A stretch of 64,000 nucleotides of DNA, taken from the NCBI RefSeq assembly GCF_032854445.1, contig NC_088304.1, positions 30,821,732 to 30,885,731 of the forward strand, given 5' to 3'. Position 1 is the stretch's first letter. Each line of letters opens with the position of its first letter. The stretch is from Liolophura sinensis. Its lineage: Eukaryota; Mollusca; Polyplacophora; Chitonida; Chitonidae. Below are positions 7,561 through 64,000 of this stretch, piece after piece. Both the position numbers and the translations under genes were made by a program. The notes under the pieces were generated by a model. It did not search any database and had not been told where the DNA came from. It was given only the letters and a program-made list of their open reading frames with translations.

Positions 7561-7903
7561 TTTGTAGTATGACTCTGTACTTTCACTACACATGTATGTT
7601 GATGACTTGTTGATGGGAAAGAAAATGCATTTATTTGTTACTTTACTGTAAATTTTCTTGCATAGACACATGTTGCTTAGTTGATCATAAAGGTTGTGTT
7701 TTGTATTTCACCTGTAGCTGGAATGCACTATTTAAAATGATACTTTTCATGCCAACACTTAATTTTTTTCTGGTCATAAATTAATCAATTTTGTCAGAAA
7801 AATCTAAGTGGCCCTATGAATTAATAAGAATCAAGAGAAATGTGTTGCTTGAAAACTGCTGTTATAAACTTGAGGTGAAATACAGTATTTCATACTGAAG
7901 GTC

Positions 7904-8058
7904 GTGGAGTACATGCCTTGACCTTGTGGAGTACATGCCTTGACCTTGTGGAGTACATGCCTCGACATTGTGGAGTGCATTCCTTGACCTTGTGGAGTGC
8001 ATTCCTTGACCTTGTGGAGTGCATGCCTCGACCTTGTGAAGTACATGCCTTGACACTG
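7904..8058. repeat. 22-bp minisatellite, about 7 copies
   Basis: The unit is close to gtggagtacatgccttgacctt, repeated head to tail with few substitutions (tgcattcc, tgcctcgac). It gives three overlapping short repetitive open frames on the minus strand that are not genes. Confidence 0.9.
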
Positions 8059-8415
8059 TGCAGAAAGCCCTCACTGTAAATCTCCAACCTCTAATGCACT
8101 TTTTTCAGTGGACTGATGCATTCAATTATTATGAAAATGGCGCTAAAGTCATCCGTCACTAAAGATAAAAGCTTCACGACACTTTGCAAGTTATTTCTCT
8201 TCACCTAATAATTCTCTCCGAATGTTTCAAAGTATTGGTCGCAGGGCCGGTTGAAAGAGTTGAAGTATTGGGGCATTTGATTGGTGGTTTTTACTTCTAC
8301 ATGACTTGCACTGCAGCCCTTTTGGTTCTCTAACCTAGTACCAGGTACCATGAGTTACATCCTATCATTGAGTTTAATCCCACTTTAGCGACCGGTAATT
8401 TTGTGAACATGAAAG

Positions 8416-8559: not shown

Positions 8560-9500
8560 GATGCAGAGATAAGGTTTATTCTGCTCAGACTAAAGGTACA
8601 TAATGAAACAATTACAAACCTATATGTCATCAAAAATAAGCACTTCCAAAAACAAAGTCTGGGCTTATCCTGATCAGAGATACATGGATAATTATAGTAT
8701 AAAGGTTGTAAAATGTCCACGTTCAGTTGTTGGTTATTTATTAAACAAAGCAGCAATAGAAAATCCTCCATACAGGTACACTGTATGCTTGGCTATGTTG
8801 TAAGCACCCAATGGAGCCTCACCTCAGATCGCTGAAGAGTTTTGACCTAATTTACATTGCCTGTAAAACACTTGCACTTCAGGAAGACGGGAGCAAAGAT
8901 CCTGTTGTGTTTCATGAAGTTATAGAGTGAAATGTCAGCCTTGTCCTGGTAAAGCAATGCGTAGTAATCCATAATATCCATTTAATATGTTTAATATTGA
9001 CGCTTGTTAATTATATACAGCTGGGCCATGTAATCCCTACTGCTACCGCAGCCTTCAGATGTTCATCCCCTATCATATGGACGGCTGAGGAATTTTCAAT
9101 GGTTAAATAAGGAAAAAATTTTGAGGGTTCACAAATGCACAAATTTGATACAAAATCAGCTGCAGGGGTAAACTTTTGGTTCACTGGCTAAAAAAGAAGT
9201 GAATAAGTGCACCAATGCAATCCTGCTTTGCCACCTTCCTCTCTTAGCATGTATCCCTCGCACAGCCACAACATTGAGATTCCTGGAATCATGGTGACAT
9301 CCCCCTGTTTGATGTCTACTTCATATGACAAACTATTATGACTTCAACCCTTCTGCTCATGCAATATTCTAGAGCTAATCCTCTGCCACAGAGGCTACTG
9401 GAATCTTTTCCACCTTCTTCCAGTTTCATCTCAATCATCTCCTTATACAATATTTTTCATAGTGCTAACCTTCGATCACAGAGACCACTGATGTTTGTTC
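8560..9500. other. Intergenic, nothing recognised
   Basis: No gene-like homology or clear repeat is seen between the microsatellite and the 24-bp minisatellite. Confidence 0.5.
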
Positions 9501-9504
9501 CACC

Positions 9505-9826
9505 TTCTTTAAGTCTCCACTTGTTACCTTCTTCAAGTCTCCATGTGTTACCTTCTTCAAGTCTCCACATGTTACCTTCTTCAAGTCTCCATGTGTTACC
9601 TTCTTCAAGTCTCCATGTGTTACCTTCTTCAAGTCTCCACATGTTTACCTTCTTCAAGTCTCCATGTGTTACCTTCTTCAAGTCTCCATGTGTTACCTTC
9701 TTCAAGTCTCCACATGTTACCTTCTTCAAGTCTCCATGTGTTACCTTCTTCAAGTCTCCACATGTTACCTTCTTCAAGTCTCCATCTGTTACCTTCTTCA
9801 AGTCTCCATGTGTTACCTTCTCTTAC
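9505..9826. repeat. 24-bp minisatellite, about 13 copies
   Basis: The unit is close to ttaccttcttcaagtctccatgtg, with ccacatg and ccatgtg variants, and one copy with an extra T. Because the unit is a multiple of three, long repetitive open frames appear on both strands (9338-9946 plus, 9457-9801 minus). It starts about 160 bases beyond the POP5 stop and may fall in the POP5 3' UTR. Confidence 0.93.
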
Positions 9827-9983
9827 AAGAACCTTCAGGCCTCAAGCACATCCACATACATCCCCGAGATCACTGAATTCTGTAACTTCCATCATGGTTG
9901 TGAGATCGCCTTGTGTGGTGTTCGCACCGCCATCTCATATCACTAGTAATCTGAAAGTCTTTCACAGCATCCTCCTGTCTTCC

Positions 9984-23960: not shown

Positions 23961-24050
23961 TGTTTTCATCATATTAAATAAACGAAAAGATGGAAACAGT
24001 GTAAAGAGAACTAAACGCTAGATTCGTAGGCGACAAAATGGACTTCTTTG

Positions 24051-24263
24051 CCATCATATATACGTACGGCTGTACCATGGCGTCGTCTTTTCCATCATAT
24101 ATGCGTAAGGTTGCACCATGGTGTCGTCTTTTGCATCATGTATACGTAAGGTTGTACCATGGTGTCGTCTTTGCCATCATATATACGTAAGGCTGTGCCA
24201 TGGTGTCGTCTTTTCCATCATATATACGTAAGGTTGTACCATAGTGTCGTCTTTTCCATCATA
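24051..24263. repeat. 41-bp minisatellite, five copies
   Basis: Units start at 24051, 24092, 24133, 24174 and 24215 (exact 41-bp spacing), with a partial sixth. The core is 'ccatcatatatacgtaagg' plus 'ttgtaccatggtgtcgtctt'. Confidence 0.95.
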
Positions 24264-24344
24264 AAGGTCTAAGACCGGAATCAAACCCGGGTGGGGTTAT
24301 ATCAAAAACTTTCAAAAGTTGCGTATTGCTCCTCGCTTGAGCAA

Positions 24345-27744: not shown

Positions 27745-27810
27745 AGTACGATATTGTTGTTGATGTTGTTATTGTTGTTGTTGATGATGATCTTCTTGTT
27801 CTTGGTCATA
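27745..27810. repeat. (TTG/GAT)n trinucleotide tract
   Basis: gttgttgatgttgttattg and gttgttgttgatgatgatc simple sequence. Confidence 0.8.
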
Positions 27811-27904
27811 CTCCAGACTAGCAAATGATGTATGGAAATCTTAAACGAGACCACTGGGGTCACGGTAATGGGGCAGAAAGGAAAAACAAAATTTCATTCT
27901 CAAC

Positions 27905-28810
27905 CTTTGCTTGATACAGATGCTTATTGTTTGGTACTTATTAATGCTTGATACAGATGCTTTATGTTTGATACTTGTTAAAGTTTGATACAGATGCTTA
28001 ATGTTTGATACTTATTAATGCTTGATACAAATACTTAATGTTTGATACTTATCAGTGCTTGATACAGATGCTTAATGTTTGATACTTGTTAATGCTTGAT
28101 ACAGATGCTTCATGTTTGATACTTATTAATTCTTGATACAGATACTTAATGTTTGATACTTATCAATGCTTGATACAGATACTTAATGTTTGATACTTAT
28201 CAGTGCTTGATACAGATACTTAATGTTTGATACTTATTAATGCCTGATTCAGATGCTTAATGTTTGATACTTATTAATGCTTGATACAGATGTCTAATGT
28301 TTGATACTTATTAATGCTTGATACAGATGTCTAATGTTTGATACTTATTAATGCTTGATACAGATACTTAATGTTTGATACTTATTAATGCTTGATATAG
28401 ATGCTTCATGTTGATACTTATTAATGCTTGATACAGATACTTAATGTTTGATACTTATTAATGCTTGATACAGATGTCTAATGTTTGATACTTATCAATG
28501 CTTGATACAGATGCTTCATGTTGATACTTATTAATGCCTGATTCTGATGCCTAATGTTTGATACTTATTAATGCTTGATACAGATACTTAATGTTTGATA
28601 CTTATTAATGCTTGATATAGATGCTTCATGTTGATACTTATTAATGCTTGATACAGATACTTAATGTTTGATACTTATCAATGCTTGATACAGATGCCTA
28701 ATATTTGATACTTATCAATGCTTGATACAAATGCTTAATGTTTGATACTTATCAATGCTTGATACAGATGCATTATGTTTGCTGCTTATTAATGCTTGAT
28801 ACAGATGCAT
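27905..28810. repeat. 37-bp minisatellite, about 24 copies
   Basis: The unit is close to 'tgcttgatacagatacttaa' plus 'tgtttgatacttattaa'. Variants such as 'gatgtctaatg' and 'gatgcttcatgttgatac' recur at intervals, showing higher-order blocks of several units. It is about 0.9 kb and non-coding. Confidence 0.95.
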
Positions 28811-28819
28811 TATGTTTAT

Positions 28820-30520
28820 CCGAAGTATGCGCAGAATGTTTCTAACGGACGCCTGAACCAATTTTATCGATGAATGCTGATTACAGGTCTGCTCGAGAAC
28901 ACCCTTAGTGAGGCTAAGCTGAGGCAAGTCCACGTGCCTTGTATGGGCTCGAAAGGTCAAGCTTGTCTAGTGGTGGTAATGATGTAAAACGAATGTAGAG
29001 AGCGGCGTATGCGCTCCAAGAAGTATAGTTCTTGGCTAGGACGTGTATCTTTTAAATGCGCATGGTTAAAGATAACCACACAGAACTGATTTGTTTGCCT
29101 TTCAGAAATTGTACGCACTGTTCTAAAAAATAACATCTGGGAATTTTGAACAAGATAGCACAAAAAATCCTCGCAGGTCTATAACTGCAAAACATATACC
29201 CATTGTTTTAACCTAAGTGCATAACAACGTTTGGTTTGATTGATTGACTGATTGACTCGTATTTTATCGCCAAGCCTAAGACATTTTCACTTCTACTGTG
29301 GGATATGCCTACATACATGTGCCTAAATTCGCAGTAAGGAGCCATGTTCCGATTTTCTGGTTTATTTCAGTACATCTTGGCCTTGATAAATTCAGTCTGA
29401 TGTCCGTTGCCGGTTATCTGGCTTGCCAATTATTCCTTATTTAATAACATCGTTAACCGCTACATCACATTCTTAATGGACGCACGAGTTTGAGGTGATG
29501 ACGTTTGCTATAAAAATGGCCCTAAACACTCCTATTATTAATTCCTGGAAAGGACGATCTTTATGTAACCCCGAGATCATTAATCTAAATTAGGAAGATC
29601 AAATCCATAGTTAGAATTTTTCCTCGTGCATGCAGGATGCTGTTCATTTTTTTTTTTTACCACGGCGTGAGTTTCCATCAACGCGTTGATTACATGGGCA
29701 TGAATATTTCTTTACTTTTTTCACGACTGCACAGATTCTCCGAGTTATTGACCGCTTGTATATTACCCTGGTGCTATTTCTCCAGGTCACAAATGGGAAT
29801 ATTTAGATTGATATGTCAGATTGGCAACTGTGTATTCCAGGCCCCAAGGACAGCATAAAAGGAAGAAACACACGTGAAACAGCGGGGAACATCTGCTTAA
29901 ATGGCAAGAACTGTTAATTTTCTTATTCAAATAATGCTTAATGGATTTATTCTCAGGATGCGTTAAAAATCAGAATTTGATAGCTGTGGGAAAAGCTTAA
30001 ATACCTATAGAAAGTTCAGTCTTTACACAGGAGTTGGCTGCTTTTTGTTATCATTTGGAATCGAGTAACGCTATTTGCATACGTAAGTTTGCTTCGACCG
30101 CAGCATTTATCATTAATCGTCTTAGGCCCCGTTTCACAAAACAAGATTTCTATTTTTCTCATACTTAAGCAATTGTTTTGCCTTGTTGAGCAATTCAAGT
30201 TCTTTGTAGTGTTTGACTTACTCTTTCGAGAAAGGTGTTACAGTTGGGTAAACAAACGAGTCCTCAGCTCAAGTCCTGTGGCCCAATCCACAACGTCATT
30301 TTTGACAGGTCAAAAATTTGAAACACGAGTGGAGAGGCCATTTTAAGGGCCTTCTGGCCATCTTGTCGATGTTATGATCATCACAACTGTGTCAAAATTG
30401 CAACTTCAGTACTGAAAAATAAGCATTGTCTCTGGTGTATATACATGCAGGTTGCTTAGGTCGTATCAGAAGTATACATAAAAAGAGATATTTGTGCCAC
30501 CGCGATGTGTGGTATCTCGT
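28820..30520. other. Intergenic, nothing recognised
   Basis: No recognisable gene or repeat. A T-run lies at 29647-29658. Confidence 0.5.
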
Positions 30521-37205: not shown

Positions 37206-37883
37206 ATGGATATCGTCAGGCCCTTAAACAACATTTCCTTTATCCGGGACGATGAATTTGTCGACATCAACGTCACAACGCTGGGCCCCAATGTCAATGA
37301 CACGGACGATTATTCTCTGGACGTCGCTTACGTAACGTTGGAACTTTTGGCCGCGTTAGCCACGACGGTGGGTAACGCATGTGTGATTGTGGTTTTCCTC
37401 AAATATAGGAGTATGCGAAGCGTGACGAATTACTACGTATTGTCTTTAGCCGTGGCAGATTTGTTGGTTGGTATGATCGCTGTGCCGTTTGCAATTGTCA
37501 CAAGTGTGCAACTGCCGAAACTTTTCGAGGCCTGTTTGTTTATGAACTCTCTCCTAATGGCGTTATGTACAAGCTCGATTTTCTCCCTGGTTGCGCTGTC
37601 AATCGACAGATATATCGCCATCATTTACCCGTTGCATTACAAAACAACCATGACGGCCAAACATTCTCTTATCGCCATATTTACTTCCTGGATCCTGGCG
37701 ATTATCGTAGGACTCTTGCCGTTGTTCGGCTGGAATTTGGGTCGACCGCCTGTGCCGAGATGCCGATTCACTGAAGTCATGGATCTCACTTACTTGCTGT
37801 TCATTTACGCAGCCACCATAATTCTTCCGTCTGTGTTTATCTCTGTGGTTTATGCTAAAATATTCTGGGTGGTTCACAAACAC
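37206..37883 (+). CDS. Adenosine receptor-like GPCR exon 1 (N-terminus to TM5)
   Basis: ATG lies in the context gacaATGG, the exon has 226 codons and ends at donor gtaagt after VVHKH. It covers TM1-TM5. The frame runs on 30 bases into the intron before a stop, so an unspliced reading of 235 aa would lack TM6-TM7. Confidence 0.93.
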
Positions 37884-39482
37884 GTAAGTACGTTTTTTGC
37901 CTTACTCCTTTAACTGTATAGTCTATACATGACAGTTTGATTATCTTATAGGTGATTAAAAAAAACAACAACAAAAACAGTGTCCCTTTCTGTTGTTTAT
38001 TAAATATGATGACAATGGAGTATTTTGAGTAATTTTAGACCAGGAGGTTCTTCTAAATGGCATCATTATTGCTTTTTTTTAACTTAATTTTTCTTCAGCC
38101 ACGGTACATTTGTTACTGTTTGAGCATTTACACGAAATGTTAGGATAAAACCTTCACTGAGCTAAACTGACAATAAGCCGGATTTCACCAGTTACATGTG
38201 ACCATTTGCCAACTATCACGCTGCCGTCGTTATTCTAGTTTCATGCCCTATGCTATACAGACTTCTGTATTACTTCATTGACAGTGTTCTCTGTACATAA
38301 TAGTTTGATTAGAATAAATATTTCCTCTGTGTATCAACGTTTGATTATATTGCATCATTGGGGATAGTCGAAAAGACACCCAATTTCGACTGTCTTTTAT
38401 GTTTCCTCTTGTTTTAAATTTAATCATAAGTTGTGTTATAGTTTTTGTAGTGTAATCATCATTTTTGATTAACTAAGCCGAGTGTGGCGTGAAAAAGTAA
38501 TAAAATTAGATAGCCATTCTAATAAGTCACACTGTGTGGTTGTGAGCAAAGTTGTGTTCATTCAACAGATGCTTTAGATGTGTGCCAAGATCTGCTCGTT
38601 TTTAGAAAACAATTCGTTTGGAAATTGATCATGCCACTGCTCACCGGAAATGTCTATTTATAAAAAGTAACGAAATATAAACACATATGTACTTCAAATG
38701 GATCAAACAGACGTACGCTCTAGCCGATAACCGATAAAGGCTGAACTTCCGTCATTATATACACGTGAGTATTGCGAAACGTCCATTGATTGACAGAATC
38801 CAGAATATTATAATGTAAGTGACAGAAACTTAATTGCGTTGTCTCGTGCAGAGTGTCTGCTCGAGGTTACGAACTGTTATTGAAAGTAAACAGGGCGTAT
38901 TTATAGGATGTGTGCTATGTAAACAGGTATCAGAAGTGCGGCGACCACGGTAATGAATGAGTGCTCTGATTCAGATGCCAACATTGAGAGGTCCGCAAGA
39001 GGTTGATAAAACAGTGTCCGTGGTGTTGATTCGTGGCAATCTTAAAGTTTTTGCTTCGCCAAACAATCCTGTATGTCAACAATCACACGGGGTGTGCCCA
39101 CATCGTGGACATCAGGAACTCGGCTTCTGCTGAGACCAGATATGTGATGGTCTCTCCTAAAAACACGACATGTCACGCCTCAAGCATTGATGGTGCACGT
39201 TTTGGTGGCTCTAATTAGTAACTGAATTTATTGTTTGGATCCAACATTTTGTTCCAAATTCCAGCAAAACAGCATCTGGTCTTAGCTACGCGGACGGTGA
39301 AGAAAGACCAAACCTAAAGAGTTTGCCATTAGAAACTGTAAACTAACATGTAATCAGGAAACCACATCCGTGATAGAGCATTTTGTTTGAATTTAACCCA
39401 AAAACCCTATTTGTAAAAAAGTGGAAAATGGAATCGATATACTATTAAATGCCCTATTACATGCCCGATGTTTTTTTGTTTG

Positions 39483-58864: not shown

Positions 58865-59333
58865 ACACACGTTGGTAACCAGTCGTTGCCATTCATAAAG
58901 ACGGGCCTGAATATTTGCTTGTTTTTATTTTGCTTGGTCTTCAACGCCGATTTCAACATTATTACGGCCCTTTCACACCAGTGTTTCCCCTACAGATTGG
59001 TTTCAATTCTGACACGTTGAAGGCAGTAGGCGTACTTCACGGAAAGCGAGTCTATCAGTACTTGGTCCATCCTCTTAGGGCGAGTGCAAAAGCCAAGTAA
59101 TACCGTGATTGCCGATGTTGAAATCTTAGATCTGGCACTGAAGCCCACATCTGCTGCTTATCGAAGGGCCTTTTATACACGGGTCAAGTAATTCACAGGC
59201 TTTTTTTGACACTGATGAAAGACAGTATAGCTTACACCAATTCCTTGATGTGACTGATCTTTAGTTTGTCCTCAGTATAAGCACACATCTTCAGGACAGC
59301 GAGATGCGAACCCCAGTCAGGGACAGAGTATGT
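58865..59333. other. Left flank of the 4.6-kb transposon
   Basis: No recognised gene or repeat. It ends in ATGT (59330-59333), the candidate target duplication. Confidence 0.5.
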
Positions 59334-59786
59334 GGACACAGACCCCCATTACAACTTCCGTTTTTCGGTAGGGACGATTGTAGTTCTGTGAATTTTAGGG
59401 TATAAAGTCTTTTTTTGCTCCCAGGCGTCAATTTTTGGTGCACAGGTGCATGCTTGGTATTAAAATGCTGGAAACTGTCTAAACTTTGAGGAGGTATGAG
59501 CTTTATTGATGAAAGTTTGAAATTCTGGGCGAGAGGACACAAGGTGTGAGGTAGTGATGAGGCTGCGAGTGACGTCCCCTTGGCGTTGCTAGGCACGCCT
59601 CCCAGCTGCCGGCATGGAAAGGTCCAGATTTTGACGGTCAACCTATGTCAAGATTTTTATGGCTTCTTTCTCACAGGCTGGGCCAGGTATGCACCAAAGC
59701 TTAATGGCCACGGAATGTTTGGGACTGAGCTACAGCGCTAGACGTTAACATTGTCGCTTATGGAAAATTAATGGGGGTCCGAGGCC
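59334..59786. repeat. Left 453-bp direct repeat of the transposon
   Basis: It is identical by eye to 63466-63918. It is bounded by GACCCCCATTA (59341-59351) and TAATGGGGGTC (59769-59779), so the repeat itself has inverted ends. A ~105-codon minus-strand frame inside has no recognisable homology and is probably fortuitous. Confidence 0.93.
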
Positions 59787-60044
59787 TGTACTGACGAAGT
59801 CACCAAAATGTGAAAAATGTCACTATGCGCTTAGATTTCGCAGCAGCCTGATAATTTTTGGTGGGTATGTCTGTGATGTGTTTTGCATTGATTGGGCCGT
59901 TTCATAGCTTCTTGGGGCTATTTACATTTTGAAAATATCCATTTTGATGAAAAATCGGTAAAATGCTGTTCAGCGTAGGGTAGCATGTGTATAGGCATCC
60001 TGAAATGAACAACATGCAACGTTGTAGTATTCCTACGCTTGAAA

Positions 60045-60428
60045 ATGGAGACGTTCAGAGCAGAAATTGCTGCAAAAATTGAAAGTTTCAGTGTTTATAG
60101 TGAAAACGGAGCCTGTCGAGTGTGGACTGGACCATTGACGAGGGATGGTCGATATGGTCTTGCCTCCTACAAAGACCCCGTCACACATCGATGGAAGAAG
60201 AAACACATCAGTAGACTTGTTTATATGGCCAGACAGGGGCTGTCACATTTAGATCCCAAGCTTGATTGTTCACACGTGTGCCACAACACACGCTGTGTAA
60301 ATGTGGACCACATAAGCTTGGAACCACATTGTGTTAACAATAACAGGCAGCACTGCTGTCTCGGCCATGGGCAGTATGCAAGGTGCATGTTGCATTTAAG
60401 ACTGAGCAGGTTGGTTTCCCCTCATTAA
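60045..60428 (+). CDS. His-Cys-box (I-PpoI-like) endonuclease
   Basis: The product is 127 aa from ATG 60045; a TTG six bases upstream is in frame but not a credible start. Residues 74-89 read DCSHVCHNTRCVNVDH, almost the same as the active-site segment of the homing endonuclease I-PpoI. By that family's layout, H77 is the catalytic base and N98 (H89+9) holds the metal. C24, C79, C84 and H89 would bind the first zinc, and C104, C105, H108 and C114 the second. An upstream CRVWTGPLTRDGRYG segment is typical of the zinc-loop endonuclease domain seen in invertebrate genomes. All expected catalytic and zinc residues are present, so it looks functional. It lies 258 bp inside the left direct repeat and converges on the transposase. 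An AATAAA follows the stop at 60433-60438. The role (self-mobility, donor cutting, or cargo) is unknown. Confidence 0.85.
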   Translation: METFRAEIAAKIESFSVYSENGACRVWTGPLTRDGRYGLASYKDPVTHRWKKKHISRLVYMARQGLSHLDPKLDCSHVCHNTRCVNVDHISLEPHCVNNNRQHCCLGHGQYARCMLHLRLSRLVSPH

Positions 60429-60432
60429 AAAT

Positions 60433-60438
60433 AATAAA
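60433..60438 (+). promoter_or_regulatory. AATAAA after the nuclease gene
   Basis: Canonical polyadenylation hexamer five bases past the stop codon. Confidence 0.5.
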
Positions 60439-60480
60439 TAACAGATTGTTTTAGATTTTGCTCAATTTCTGTTATCATTT

Positions 60481-60486
60481 TTTAAT
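60481..60486 (-). promoter_or_regulatory. ATTAAA after the transposase gene
   Basis: Variant polyadenylation hexamer on the minus strand, about 51 bases past the transposase stop. The two convergent genes therefore appear to end in the same 110-bp gap. Confidence 0.45.
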
Positions 60487-60536
60487 TTCTTTCATAAGCA
60501 ACAACAGCAGTGACAAATTATATACAAAATTGGCGG

Positions 60537-62591
60537 TTACAAATATCTAGTGTATGTGTGATCTGTTTGGGTGTTGTCCAGCTGTCCCTTGGCATAGTCA
60601 GTTTTTTCTTCTGGATTTGAAAGCCTGTACTCAATGTGCTCTCGAAGTTTTCTGGCTGTATTGCGGAGTGATCTCCCCTTAACTGTCTGTCGCTTCTTAT
60701 AAACCTTGTGGTACTGGTTCACCCTTTCAATCTGTTGTACTGTTCTCTCGCTCCTAGGTGAAATACTGGCGCCGACAGCTTGGAGTTTGGCAGCCGTGGA
60801 CTTGTCCTGGCCATTGTTAAGTCTGTGGATTGTGGACGCCGCCCTTCCCTCCATATTTCTGCTGTAGTTTACATTCTTGGGCAAGGAGACGCTGAGTGAT
60901 CTGTTGACAGCTTCGCACTTTTGAGTGCTGGTGTTCATCCGGAGACTGGTGACGGCTGTCTCGCTCAACCTCATGTGCAGTACTTCGGTCAATAGTTTCG
61001 TGTCGTTGTCATCCATGTTAAAAGGGCAGAGTTTACTGGTGGATAAAAACAGGGACCTCTCCCACCAGCTGCTGGTTTCCCCTCCGGAGCAAACCACACT
61101 GTTCCTGCGGCATTTGGAACAGTCCCCACCGTAACACCTGACCGTTGCATCCACAACCCTGGGTAGGCAAGTTTTTATTTTCCTCATGTCACCAATGTGC
61201 TCAGACATAAGTTGAGAAAATATCAAGCTACACCTGGCCTTAACATCCTGACTCAACACCTTCTGTGCTTTCTTCCTGGCTTCCCTCGTTCGGCCCTGTC
61301 CTTCGAACATGGCATCGCTGAACTTAGCCTGGTTACATTTCTTGAACTGGGATCTACCAAGGTGCGTGGGGTCTGCTAACCGTTCGACCTCCCACAGTGG
61401 CTCGACCAGTCGGATGCCGTCCTCCACTCCCTTGGCTGACCTGGAGTCGCCGTCTGTGGTTACATGTTTGGCAAAAACACCTTGCCTCGCCAATCCCTCG
61501 CCAATCTCGTTCCCCATATTATACTCGGACCAGGGGGCATGTGGGTTTGTGTTCGCTGTGCACTCCTCGTGTCCTCCAGGGCACTTTACTTGGAAGCCTT
61601 TTCCTCTTAGCCAGGACCCAGTCCAACACAATTTATTCTTCAGTGCTGCGGAGACAATGTATTGGTTGTCTGTTGATGTCTCCACAGCCAGGGAAATTGC
61701 TTGTGAAGCATTCTGGCCCGGTTTCTTGGGACTGGTTATGGTAATGCTGTTGTAGCGAGTGTCTGTGGCCAGATCTATTGTGCTGTCATCCTCTCCTCTT
61801 TGCCTTTTGTATGCCTTTACCTCTTCCACCTTATTTGCCATATCCTCTCTGTTCAGCTTTGCGATTGCAGATGCGACATGGTTTGCAGTGCGATGCATGT
61901 TCCTACGAGTGGCAGGCGGCACGTCCATCGCTGCAAATAGGAGTCTGGCTCGGGTGTTCCCCATTGGTGTGTCCTGGAGGCCTACTTGAAGAGCTCGGTT
62001 CACCGCCGCAGCTTTTTGGCCAGGTCTGTTGCATTCTACCTCTTTGTAGAATTTGTGGAAGCCAGATACATAGTCACAGTCACAGCACTTAAAACTGAAC
62101 GCCCAGGCTAAACCCCACTTTTTCTCTGCAGCTATCTCTAACCTGGGCAGTGGACAGTGGTCCTTGGTCTCACTGTGCTCAAGCATAACTTTGTTCCATA
62201 TACACACCATTTTCTGTATATCTATGAGTCGCATTCCTTCAGCAGCCCATTCCCGCTCATGTGTATCTCTGTCTGATCCAGCCGTGGAATCTACCTTGCA
62301 CCGTCTTGGCCGCTGTATTCTCTTTGTGTCAGGCTGGTGTGTTCTTACAGCCTCCTGATTGGGCTGGAAATCTGTGTCCATCAAGGAACACCCAGGCACA
62401 GGATTCAGCATGTCTGTAACTGCTGACAGGTTATTTGAGCCATTCTGGGCCTTTCCAGCTTGAAATCTAGACTGTTTCCTCTTTCTGTCTCCCTTCATGG
62501 TGTTTTGGGGTAGATTGTTTGCCTTGTTAACTGTCAGACTGACCAATATAGGTGTACTTGGTGGCTGCCTGATTGGAAATGTTAAATTCAT
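60537..62591 (-). CDS. Mutator-like DDE transposase
   Basis: A single uninterrupted frame of 684 aa. It resembles the large 'Mutator-like transposase domain' family common in marine invertebrates. Blocks in order: a basic low-complexity N-terminus (33-100), then a zinc-like cluster KCCDCDYVSGFHKFYKEVEC (168-187). ATDTRYNS (276-282, first catalytic D277) and WTGSWLRGKGFQVKCPGGHE (323-342) follow. Next are TTDGDSRSA (378-386, second catalytic D380 or D382), ADPTHLGRS (406-414), a C-rich insert (C486, C491, C494, C501) and TQKCEAVNRSLSVSLPKNVN (556-575, catalytic E560). The C-terminus is basic, fitting a nuclear DNA-binding protein. All three acidic residues are present and there are no internal stops. 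Family placement is by eye and the exact catalytic Asp in the DGD is inferred. Translation may begin at Met32 (62498) rather than Met1, because a TATA box lies only 15 bp before Met1. Confidence 0.85.
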   Translation of the reverse strand: MNLTFPIRQPPSTPILVSLTVNKANNLPQNTMKGDRKRKQSRFQAGKAQNGSNNLSAVTDMLNPVPGCSLMDTDFQPNQEAVRTHQPDTKRIQRPRRCKVDSTAGSDRDTHEREWAAEGMRLIDIQKMVCIWNKVMLEHSETKDHCPLPRLEIAAEKKWGLAWAFSFKCCDCDYVSGFHKFYKEVECNRPGQKAAAVNRALQVGLQDTPMGNTRARLLFAAMDVPPATRRNMHRTANHVASAIAKLNREDMANKVEEVKAYKRQRGEDDSTIDLATDTRYNSITITSPKKPGQNASQAISLAVETSTDNQYIVSAALKNKLCWTGSWLRGKGFQVKCPGGHEECTANTNPHAPWSEYNMGNEIGEGLARQGVFAKHVTTDGDSRSAKGVEDGIRLVEPLWEVERLADPTHLGRSQFKKCNQAKFSDAMFEGQGRTREARKKAQKVLSQDVKARCSLIFSQLMSEHIGDMRKIKTCLPRVVDATVRCYGGDCSKCRRNSVVCSGGETSSWWERSLFLSTSKLCPFNMDDNDTKLLTEVLHMRLSETAVTSLRMNTSTQKCEAVNRSLSVSLPKNVNYSRNMEGRAASTIHRLNNGQDKSTAAKLQAVGASISPRSERTVQQIERVNQYHKVYKKRQTVKGRSLRNTARKLREHIEYRLSNPEEKTDYAKGQLDNTQTDHTYTRYL

Positions 62592-62605
62592 ATTTTTCCT
62601 CTCTG

Positions 62606-62613
62606 TTTATATA
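62606..62613 (-). promoter_or_regulatory. TATA box of the transposase gene
   Basis: The minus strand reads TATATAAA at 62613-62606. A CCAAT motif (plus strand 'cagccaatcagc', about 62716-62727) lies some 110 bp upstream. A start site 25-30 bp downstream of the TATA box would fall inside the first ~10 codons of the long frame, favouring Met32, whose context caccATGA is strong. Confidence 0.55.
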
Positions 62614-62629
62614 TTGTAGATGCCAATGT

Positions 62630-63465
62630 GACACCCTTTGATGTTACTGTGCAGAGTAATAACCTGCTGTGAGACAACAGCAATGGTGCAGGGAGGTTTT
62701 TGCATGGTGAGCTGGTCAGCCAATCAGCAGTCATGGGGGAGGAGGGCAGGGGGGGGGGGTGCCTGGCTGGGTGGTCTTTTAAAGGGTTTCATCATGTTAT
62801 TCAGTGGGGAACTGGGATACTAGTCTTTTCTTAAGTCCTGTCCACTAAAAAAGTGCCTGTGAGTAGATCTTCATCACCTTGAGGCATTATTCTTGCTTTG
62901 ATTTTGGTCACAAGTGATTGTTCCGAAATCGTGACAATCCGCTTTGATACCCCCTACCACACTGTCAGTCAATTTTTTTCACATAGTTGCTGAAGTAAAT
63001 GTCTTATATTTTGACATTTAATTGTCAGATAAATTACCTATATTTTGATGTATGCTTTGACACTTTTGGCTTGTAACTTTGATATTTAAAGCTGCTCTGA
63101 GTAGAAAAGTCTTCTTAAAAATGTATATTTCTCTAAATGGTTGCTTTTGAAAAGTCTAAAGTGCTCTGTCAATGTGATTTTTTTAACTTTTCTTGCAGAT
63201 AAACATCTTGTCTTTCCAAAACAGTTGACCTGATGGAGATATCTCGAACGGTATATGCACTGCAAGGCTTCAAAGTTTACCCCTCAGAGTTTTTTCACCC
63301 TGGAAAAAAGACACATGTTCAAGATGGGGGTACCCCAACTTGAATTCATTCAACTCCAAAGTTTCTGCATGTATCAAGCCCTAATTTTGCCTGTGAGGTT
63401 CAAAAGTGTCAGGAATTGTGTGGTGCAAAAATTATTGATTTTGAAAAAAGGTGGCTGGTGTGATA
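62630..63465. other. Internal non-coding part of the transposon
   Basis: It lies between the transposase promoter and the right direct repeat. It includes a G-rich run (about 62745-62759). No recognisable gene. Confidence 0.5.
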
Positions 63466-63918
63466 GGACACAGACCCCCATTACAACTTCCGTTTTTCGG
63501 TAGGGACGATTGTAGTTCTGTGAATTTTAGGGTATAAAGTCTTTTTTTGCTCCCAGGCGTCAATTTTTGGTGCACAGGTGCATGCTTGGTATTAAAATGC
63601 TGGAAACTGTCTAAACTTTGAGGAGGTATGAGCTTTATTGATGAAAGTTTGAAATTCTGGGCGAGAGGACACAAGGTGTGAGGTAGTGATGAGGCTGCGA
63701 GTGACGTCCCCTTGGCGTTGCTAGGCACGCCTCCCAGCTGCCGGCATGGAAAGGTCCAGATTTTGACGGTCAACCTATGTCAAGATTTTTATGGCTTCTT
63801 TCTCACAGGCTGGGCCAGGTATGCACCAAAGCTTAATGGCCACGGAATGTTTGGGACTGAGCTACAGCGCTAGACGTTAACATTGTCGCTTATGGAAAAT
63901 TAATGGGGGTCCGAGGCC
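63466..63918. repeat. Right 453-bp direct repeat of the transposon
   Basis: Same sequence and orientation as 59334-59786, with GACCCCCATTA at 63473-63483 and TAATGGGGGTC at 63901-63911. It is followed at once by ATGT. Confidence 0.93.
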
Positions 63919-64000
63919 ATGTACATAAGACTCAATTATACCACTGACGCCTTCAGCTGCCCTCACACCAGCCTCGATCTCGTTTGCATCAAAGCTGGGT
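63919..64000. other. Right flank, possibly coding
   Basis: 82 bp of higher GC than the intergenic average, with at least one open frame on each strand. On the minus strand it reads PSFDANEIEAGVRAAEGVSG and IIESYVH. No family recognised, and it is too short to call. Confidence 0.25.

Follow-up and report, generated by a model that had tools for sequence, protein, structure and literature searches.

Results

Structure of the element

The window analysed here, a stretch of 64,000 nucleotides from the chiton Liolophura sinensis, contains at positions 59334-63918 a mobile element of 4,585 bp. It is bounded by two direct repeats (LTDRs) of 453 bp each, 59334-59786 and 63466-63918, which are identical over all 453 nt, and between them lie convergent open reading frames (ORFs) for an I-PpoI-like nuclease and a DDE transposase. 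The features are the following:

59330..59333: left target site duplication (TSD), ATGT
59334..59786, + strand: left LTDR, 453 bp; GG start, CC end; own terminal inverted repeats (TIRs) at 59334-59351 and 59769-59786
59787..63465, + strand: internal region (INT), 3,679 bp
60045..60428, + strand: I-PpoI-like His-Cys (His-Me finger) nuclease, 127 aa; PF05551
60537..62591, - strand: DDD/E transposase, 684 aa, convergent with the nuclease; PF20700
63466..63918, + strand: right LTDR, 453 bp; same sequence as the left one; own TIRs at 63466-63483 and 63901-63918
63919..63922: right TSD, ATGT

The TIRs of each LTDR are imperfect and 18 bp long (GGACACAGACCCCCATTA and GGCCTCGGACCCCCATTA, matching at 15 of 18 positions), and the repeats end in GG..CC. 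The initial annotation had read the locus as one mobile element, with an I-PpoI-like nuclease and a DDE transposase inside LTR-like direct repeats, and the repeats, the ORFs, the Pfam matches and the TSD all confirm it. The ORF list and a Pfam scan of three ORFs also support its remark that retroelement enzymes are absent: the transposase is the sole ORF of at least 150 aa in the element, Pfam matches were obtained for two of the three scanned ORFs (transposase and nuclease), and the longest further ATG-started ORF, of 148 aa, runs antisense to the transposase and has no Pfam match. The remnant of an LTR retroelement whose internal genes were replaced could account for LTR-like repeats, for solo repeats and for the concerted repeats described below, but this ORF content and repeats with 18-bp TIRs and GG..CC rather than TG..CA ends speak against such an origin, which we regard as extremely improbable.

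Elsewhere in the window, a 235-aa ORF on the + strand (37206-37913) resembles by eye part of a rhodopsin-type seven-helix receptor. Short tandem arrays occupy 27797-28890, 9430-9886, 7882-8085 and 24045-24303, with units of about 37, 24, 22 and 41 bp, respectively, and a dispersed repeat of about 100-190 bp is scattered in both orientations over 12075-57102; one family comprises five direct copies, and additional copies are inverted.

The nuclease and transposase proteins

The nuclease ORF matched PF05551 (zf-His_Me_endon) with an E-value of 3.7e-8, above the Pfam cut-off, while its direct phmmer match to I-PpoI (E 0.039) is weak alone. In the ungapped phmmer stretch, residues S76, H77, C79, C84, H89, E93, N98 and C104 of the nuclease lie opposite S97, H98, C100, C105, H110, E114, N119 and C125 of I-PpoI. 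The catalytic H98 and N119 of I-PpoI thus have equivalents in H77 and N98, and the numbering of S97, H98, H110, E114 and N119 is that given by Kojima and Bao (PMC9587614). Equivalents of these five residues and of several zinc ligands are therefore present; the two proteins differ in their setting, since I-PpoI sits in a group I intron whereas the chiton nuclease is carried by a transposon. An AlphaFold model built from eight related nucleases was poor (mean pLDDT 53) and found no match in the PDB at E<=0.001. Phage records yielded five matches to the nuclease, all weak (the best at 34% identity with E 6e-5), and three of these are annotated as HNH endonucleases; searches of viral contigs with both proteins confirmed no relatives.

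The transposase ORF matched PF20700 ('Mutator') with an E-value of 1e-76 and had no match among PDB sequences at E<=1. Judged by motif, it has D277, a CCHC finger at 322-344, D380, a DxxH at 407-410 and E560; inspection by eye adds a zinc finger located between DxxH and E, for which the search pattern matched nothing.

Genomic recurrence, target site duplications and arrays

The search covered 609,464,459 bases in 632 contigs. The repeat start (a 27-mer with at most one mismatch) was found at 743 places, the LTDR-to-INT junction at 69 and the INT-to-LTDR junction at 165, against 0 for the reversed-pattern control of each. The solo LTDRs are likely the larger class, though the three patterns reach different subfamilies and hence yield no ratio. 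On contig C1, 16 of 55 exact repeat starts, taken from 100 of the 743 places with exact matches ranked first, had a same-strand partner within 6 kb.

An exact 4-bp TSD flanked 34 of the 38 insertions for which both outer ends were read, namely 8 of 10 solos, 23 of 25 monomers and 3 of 3 multimers, while 2,000 re-pairings of the flanks gave a mean of 1.7 and a maximum of 7. LTDR-INT-LTDR units, solo LTDRs and (LTDR-INT)n-LTDR arrays were thus all found between 4-bp target duplications. The match extended over 5 or 6 bp in none of the 38, and an exact TSD was absent from L004, L006, L017 and L049. Position 1 was A and position 4 was T in 25 of 34 TSDs each, and none of the 34 was TTAA. These counts refer to 51 places (L001-L050 and the window, with L051-L058 outside the count), from which L001 was omitted as part of L022, L012 and L013 were taken together as the two ends of one array on contig C9, and 11 loci were left out whose outer end was missing, cut or unread (L023, L030, L031, L034, L035, L039, L041, L044, L045, L046 and L048); the 10 solos were drawn from the top 40 LTDR matches, a choice that favours young copies. 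Neither chance nor an assembly duplication as the source of the direct repeats fits 743 repeat-start places against 0 in the control and insertions at many other sites with 4-bp TSDs of their own.

The C9 array consists of four units at an exact spacing of 4,132 bp, and two-unit arrays were found at L021 and L047. On contig C7 (32930490-32956626; L051), a 2.9-kb non-autonomous relative shows at least 10 successive INT-LTDR junctions at a spacing of 2,898-2,909 bp, among the 100 of 165 junction places listed. Sequence was read for three of its units and for some of a fourth. These are 99% alike; matches to the nuclease and the transposase survive as fragments, the nuclease being a remnant with stops, and the INT of these units holds no ORF of at least 80 aa. 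As these units lack intact genes, multimer growth needs no intact nuclease in cis. The directly abutted INT-INT junction, the scar of LTDR excision and an excision trace in the account of Kojima and Bao (PMC9587614), gave 0 matches in the genome with one exact gapped pattern.

A tandem recurrence of another kind was seen on contig C99, where COX1 occurs seven times between about 8 and 103 kb (six full matches and one partial) in steps of about 15.5 kb, with one more occurrence on contig C632 (L059). The repeats on C99 are probably a concatenated mitochondrial genome in the assembly. Judged by eye, the COX1 contexts suit a code with AAA as lysine, ATA as methionine and AGA/AGG as serine, a usage that speaks against an echinoderm.

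Pairing of the nuclease with the transposase

A convergent PF20700 match lay within 5 kb of 51 of the 68 PF05551 places, where about 0.03 would be expected if placement were unrelated; these places are mostly copies of one family and hence not independent. One further place had another layout and 16 had no transposase match within 5 kb, in a PF20700 search that scored 114 of 172 candidates and for which misses are expected. The pairing extends to diverged families: L052 has two identical LTDRs, INT pieces 67-72% like those of the window copy and remnants of both genes; L056 has LTDRs that are 85% alike, with both genes as remnants; and L058 has an LTDR with a remnant of the nuclease and a single short match to the transposase. 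Stops interrupt the nuclease remnants of these three, and L057 retains a nuclease remnant only. The 51 places bear out the expectation that nuclease and transposase recur as convergent neighbours within 5 kb. An 81-aa ORF is open within the LTDRs of the diverged L051, L052 and L056 and may be due to chance; in the window LTDR (59498 onward), its start codon is followed by a stop after about 17 codons, as read by eye.

Three other PF20700 genes (L053-L055) had neither an LTDR nor a nuclease match in 5.5-6 kb, so that the pairing is not general to PF20700 transposases in this genome. Their ORFs measure 636, 514 and 623 aa, respectively, with hardly any difference between L053 and L054 in the 150 residues compared; these genes could be other Kolobok lineages or host genes.

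MuDR/Mutator elements normally have a TSD of about 9 bp and terminal inverted repeats only. A classical element of that type with an accidental direct repeat would agree with PF20700 being named 'Mutator-like transposase' by Pfam, but the TSD here is 4 bp, the LTDR pair is a regular feature of the family and L053-L055 carry their PF20700 genes without it; we consider such an element very unlikely. The 4-bp TSD and the repeat structure fit KolobokP (see Discussion); the designation 'Mutator-like' in the initial annotation reflects the Pfam label alone.

Concerted evolution of the LTDR pairs

The LTDRs at the two ends of an insertion show concerted evolution. The pair was identical in 10 of 25 monomers. 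Of 38 monomer cases of a minor base found in at least two monomers, 33 had it in both LTDRs, whereas about 60 shuffled pairings averaged 13% and did not exceed 27%. Two element-private variants (in L018 and L033) were searched exactly across the genome, and each was found at two places, the two LTDRs of one insertion; L012, L020, L042 and L043 also carry private variants, in addition to the two covered by this search. Separate inheritance of the two LTDRs would not be expected to give such private-variant pairs; if a parent carrying both variants has been lost or is missing from the assembly, the event just shifts one step back.

These variants also bear on the possibility that two independent MITE-like insertions flank genes captured by chance, as in a composite transposon. 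Solo LTDRs with their own TIRs and, in 8 of 10 cases, 4-bp TSDs are what such insertions would look like, but variants concerted in both repeats of an insertion contradict it, and so do monomers with one TSD outside the LTDR pair (23 of 25) and the same layout in diverged families; we hold it to be highly improbable.

Homing of the element into older resident solo LTDRs was considered in a mosaic test and rejected: outward clustering of one-sided private substitutions was expected and no bias was seen, the mean alignment column being 243.6 for left LTDRs (n=17) and 229.5 for right LTDRs (n=22).

Nuclease variants and constraint

Five of the 40 aligned nuclease sequences (L027, L028, L029, L049 and L050) have in common a deletion of 10 bp, which eliminates the catalytic-histidine region and causes a frameshift. 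These five copies form one branch in an INT tree without support values, and four of them have a 4-bp TSD. A dead nuclease beside a stop-free transposase frame was found at 11 loci, five read directly and six inferred from a split match of the same kind. Elements whose nuclease is dead have thus spread, and it follows that transposition does not require the nuclease in cis. In L014, which is near-identical to the window copy, a separate deletion affects the nuclease, yet its LTDRs are identical and its TSD is present. The window nuclease itself belongs to a type with a second zinc loop 5 residues (15 bp) shorter than that of the older type in the same genome, the 15 bp being absent in 26 of 40 sequences, and L019 and L040 lack one further cysteine in this loop. 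Judged from these sequences, the zinc-loop losses may have weakened the nuclease.

The pN/pS of the nuclease between the window copy and seven copies of the 132-aa type was 0.12-0.34 (6-9 synonymous and 4-9 non-synonymous changes per pair) and that of the transposase 0.33-0.66, figures that rest on few changes and on copies related to each other. Against the more diverged L030, the values were 0.43 for the nuclease and 0.29 for the transposase, and the nuclease of the young pairs L036 and L039 gave 0.80 and 1.05. The low values would argue against the nuclease having lost all function. No candidate nuclease site emerged in the LTDR: the best 16-base semi-palindrome, with 6 of 8 pairs, did not surpass those of shuffled sequences, which gave a mean of 5.98 and a maximum of 8.

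A nuclease that is a passenger no longer relevant to the element, with the transposase doing all movement and with arrays and solos arising from host homologous recombination or single-LTDR movement, would be consistent with the spread of the 10-bp-deletion subfamily, the state of L014, the five residues missing from the zinc loop of the window type and the array of at least 10 units formed by a family whose nuclease is a remnant with stops. On the other hand, this explanation has to face the pN/pS of 0.12-0.34 (0.43 for L030) and the adjacency of the gene to the transposase in diverged families here and, according to PMC9587614, across phyla, and intact copies could possibly supply the nuclease in trans. 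We consider the passenger role a real possibility, short of an even chance.

Discussion

The element of L. sinensis very probably belongs to KolobokP, a lineage of Kolobok DNA transposons named in 2022 by Kojima and Bao (Mob DNA 13:24; PMC9587614). The supposition that this architecture is undescribed in animals is thus not upheld, because it was catalogued in that work. According to its authors, KolobokP elements have LTDRs of about 450 or 660 bp with short TIRs (11-18 bp) of their own and RR..YY ends; their TSDs, of 3-5 bp and without strong target preference, lie at the outer ends of monomers, solos and multimers; and their two genes, a DDD/E transposase and an I-PpoI-like nuclease, lie on opposite strands. 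Besides a C/DxxH motif, the transposase has two fingers, one of the CCHC type that follows the first D and a zinc finger that precedes the last E. The lineage is reported from seven animal phyla, with solo LTDRs, multimers and non-autonomous families, and families without detectable nuclease are also mentioned (PMC9587614).

All these structural features were found in the chiton: LTDR size, TIRs, ends, TSD, a transposase alike at the level of motifs, a convergent nuclease, and solos (n=10) and multimers (n=3) of the KolobokP type with flanks read. The 4,585 bp of the element fall within the 4,022-4,748 bp of the autonomous oyster families (PMC9587614), and the 453-bp LTDRs, the GG..CC ends, the 4-bp TSD and the convergent genes agree as well with the published description. 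The chiton element differs in its host, in a bias of its TSDs toward A at the first and T at the fourth position, and in that its genome has amplified a nuclease-dead subfamily. With the Kolobok superfamily at large (Kol0 etc.), it has in common a DDD/E transposase with DxxH and zinc fingers, at the motif level, RR..YY ends and a 4-bp TSD; unlike the classic members, which target TTAA, it has no TTAA among 34 TSDs and possesses LTDRs and a nuclease. The comparison with bacterial composite transposons and IS26 translocatable units was made earlier (PMC9587614): direct terminal repeats and tandem arrays are alike, whereas the chiton transposase lies between the repeats and the host is an animal. 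We estimate the probability that this is a young autonomous-type KolobokP member in a chiton, with the steps documented above, at about 90%.

Among the new data, the concerted LTDR pair constrains the mechanism most strongly. The transposase would act on the short TIRs that terminate each LTDR, and the pair may be kept alike either through a one-LTDR intermediate, such as an LTDR-INT circle, that regenerates the second copy, or through LTDR-LTDR gene conversion. As a tentative and rather unlikely generalization, KolobokP would pass in each cycle through a DNA intermediate with a single LTDR (an LTDR-INT circle or something equivalent) and renew both LTDRs from it, even in copies without a working nuclease of their own; a pure DNA transposon would then obey, with no reverse transcription involved, the rule of 'one template, two identical ends' known from LTR retrotransposons.

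The nuclease, for its part, most likely cuts in or at the LTDRs and would provoke recombination that leads to multimers and to repair of the composite structure, a function that it could exert in trans. A possible role as second mobility enzyme was suggested in the initial annotation and had been proposed by Kojima and Bao (PMC9587614). We see the odds of such a nuclease-provoked recombination step as evenly balanced: the model is plausible, yet no datum strictly needs it.

In the main-text Table 1 of PMC9587614, the molluscs are bivalves and gastropods, with no chitons; that table is incomplete, since Corbicula features in the text but has no entry there, and the supplement or Repbase may list a chiton. 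What is new here is a host class, the chitons, beyond that main-text table, together with a young system with intact ORFs. As the architecture itself was already published, the value of the element lies in the material it offers on the upkeep of the composite structure and on the role of a homing-type nuclease; both questions become testable in a genome that combines concerted LTDR pairs with a natural nuclease-minus subfamily.
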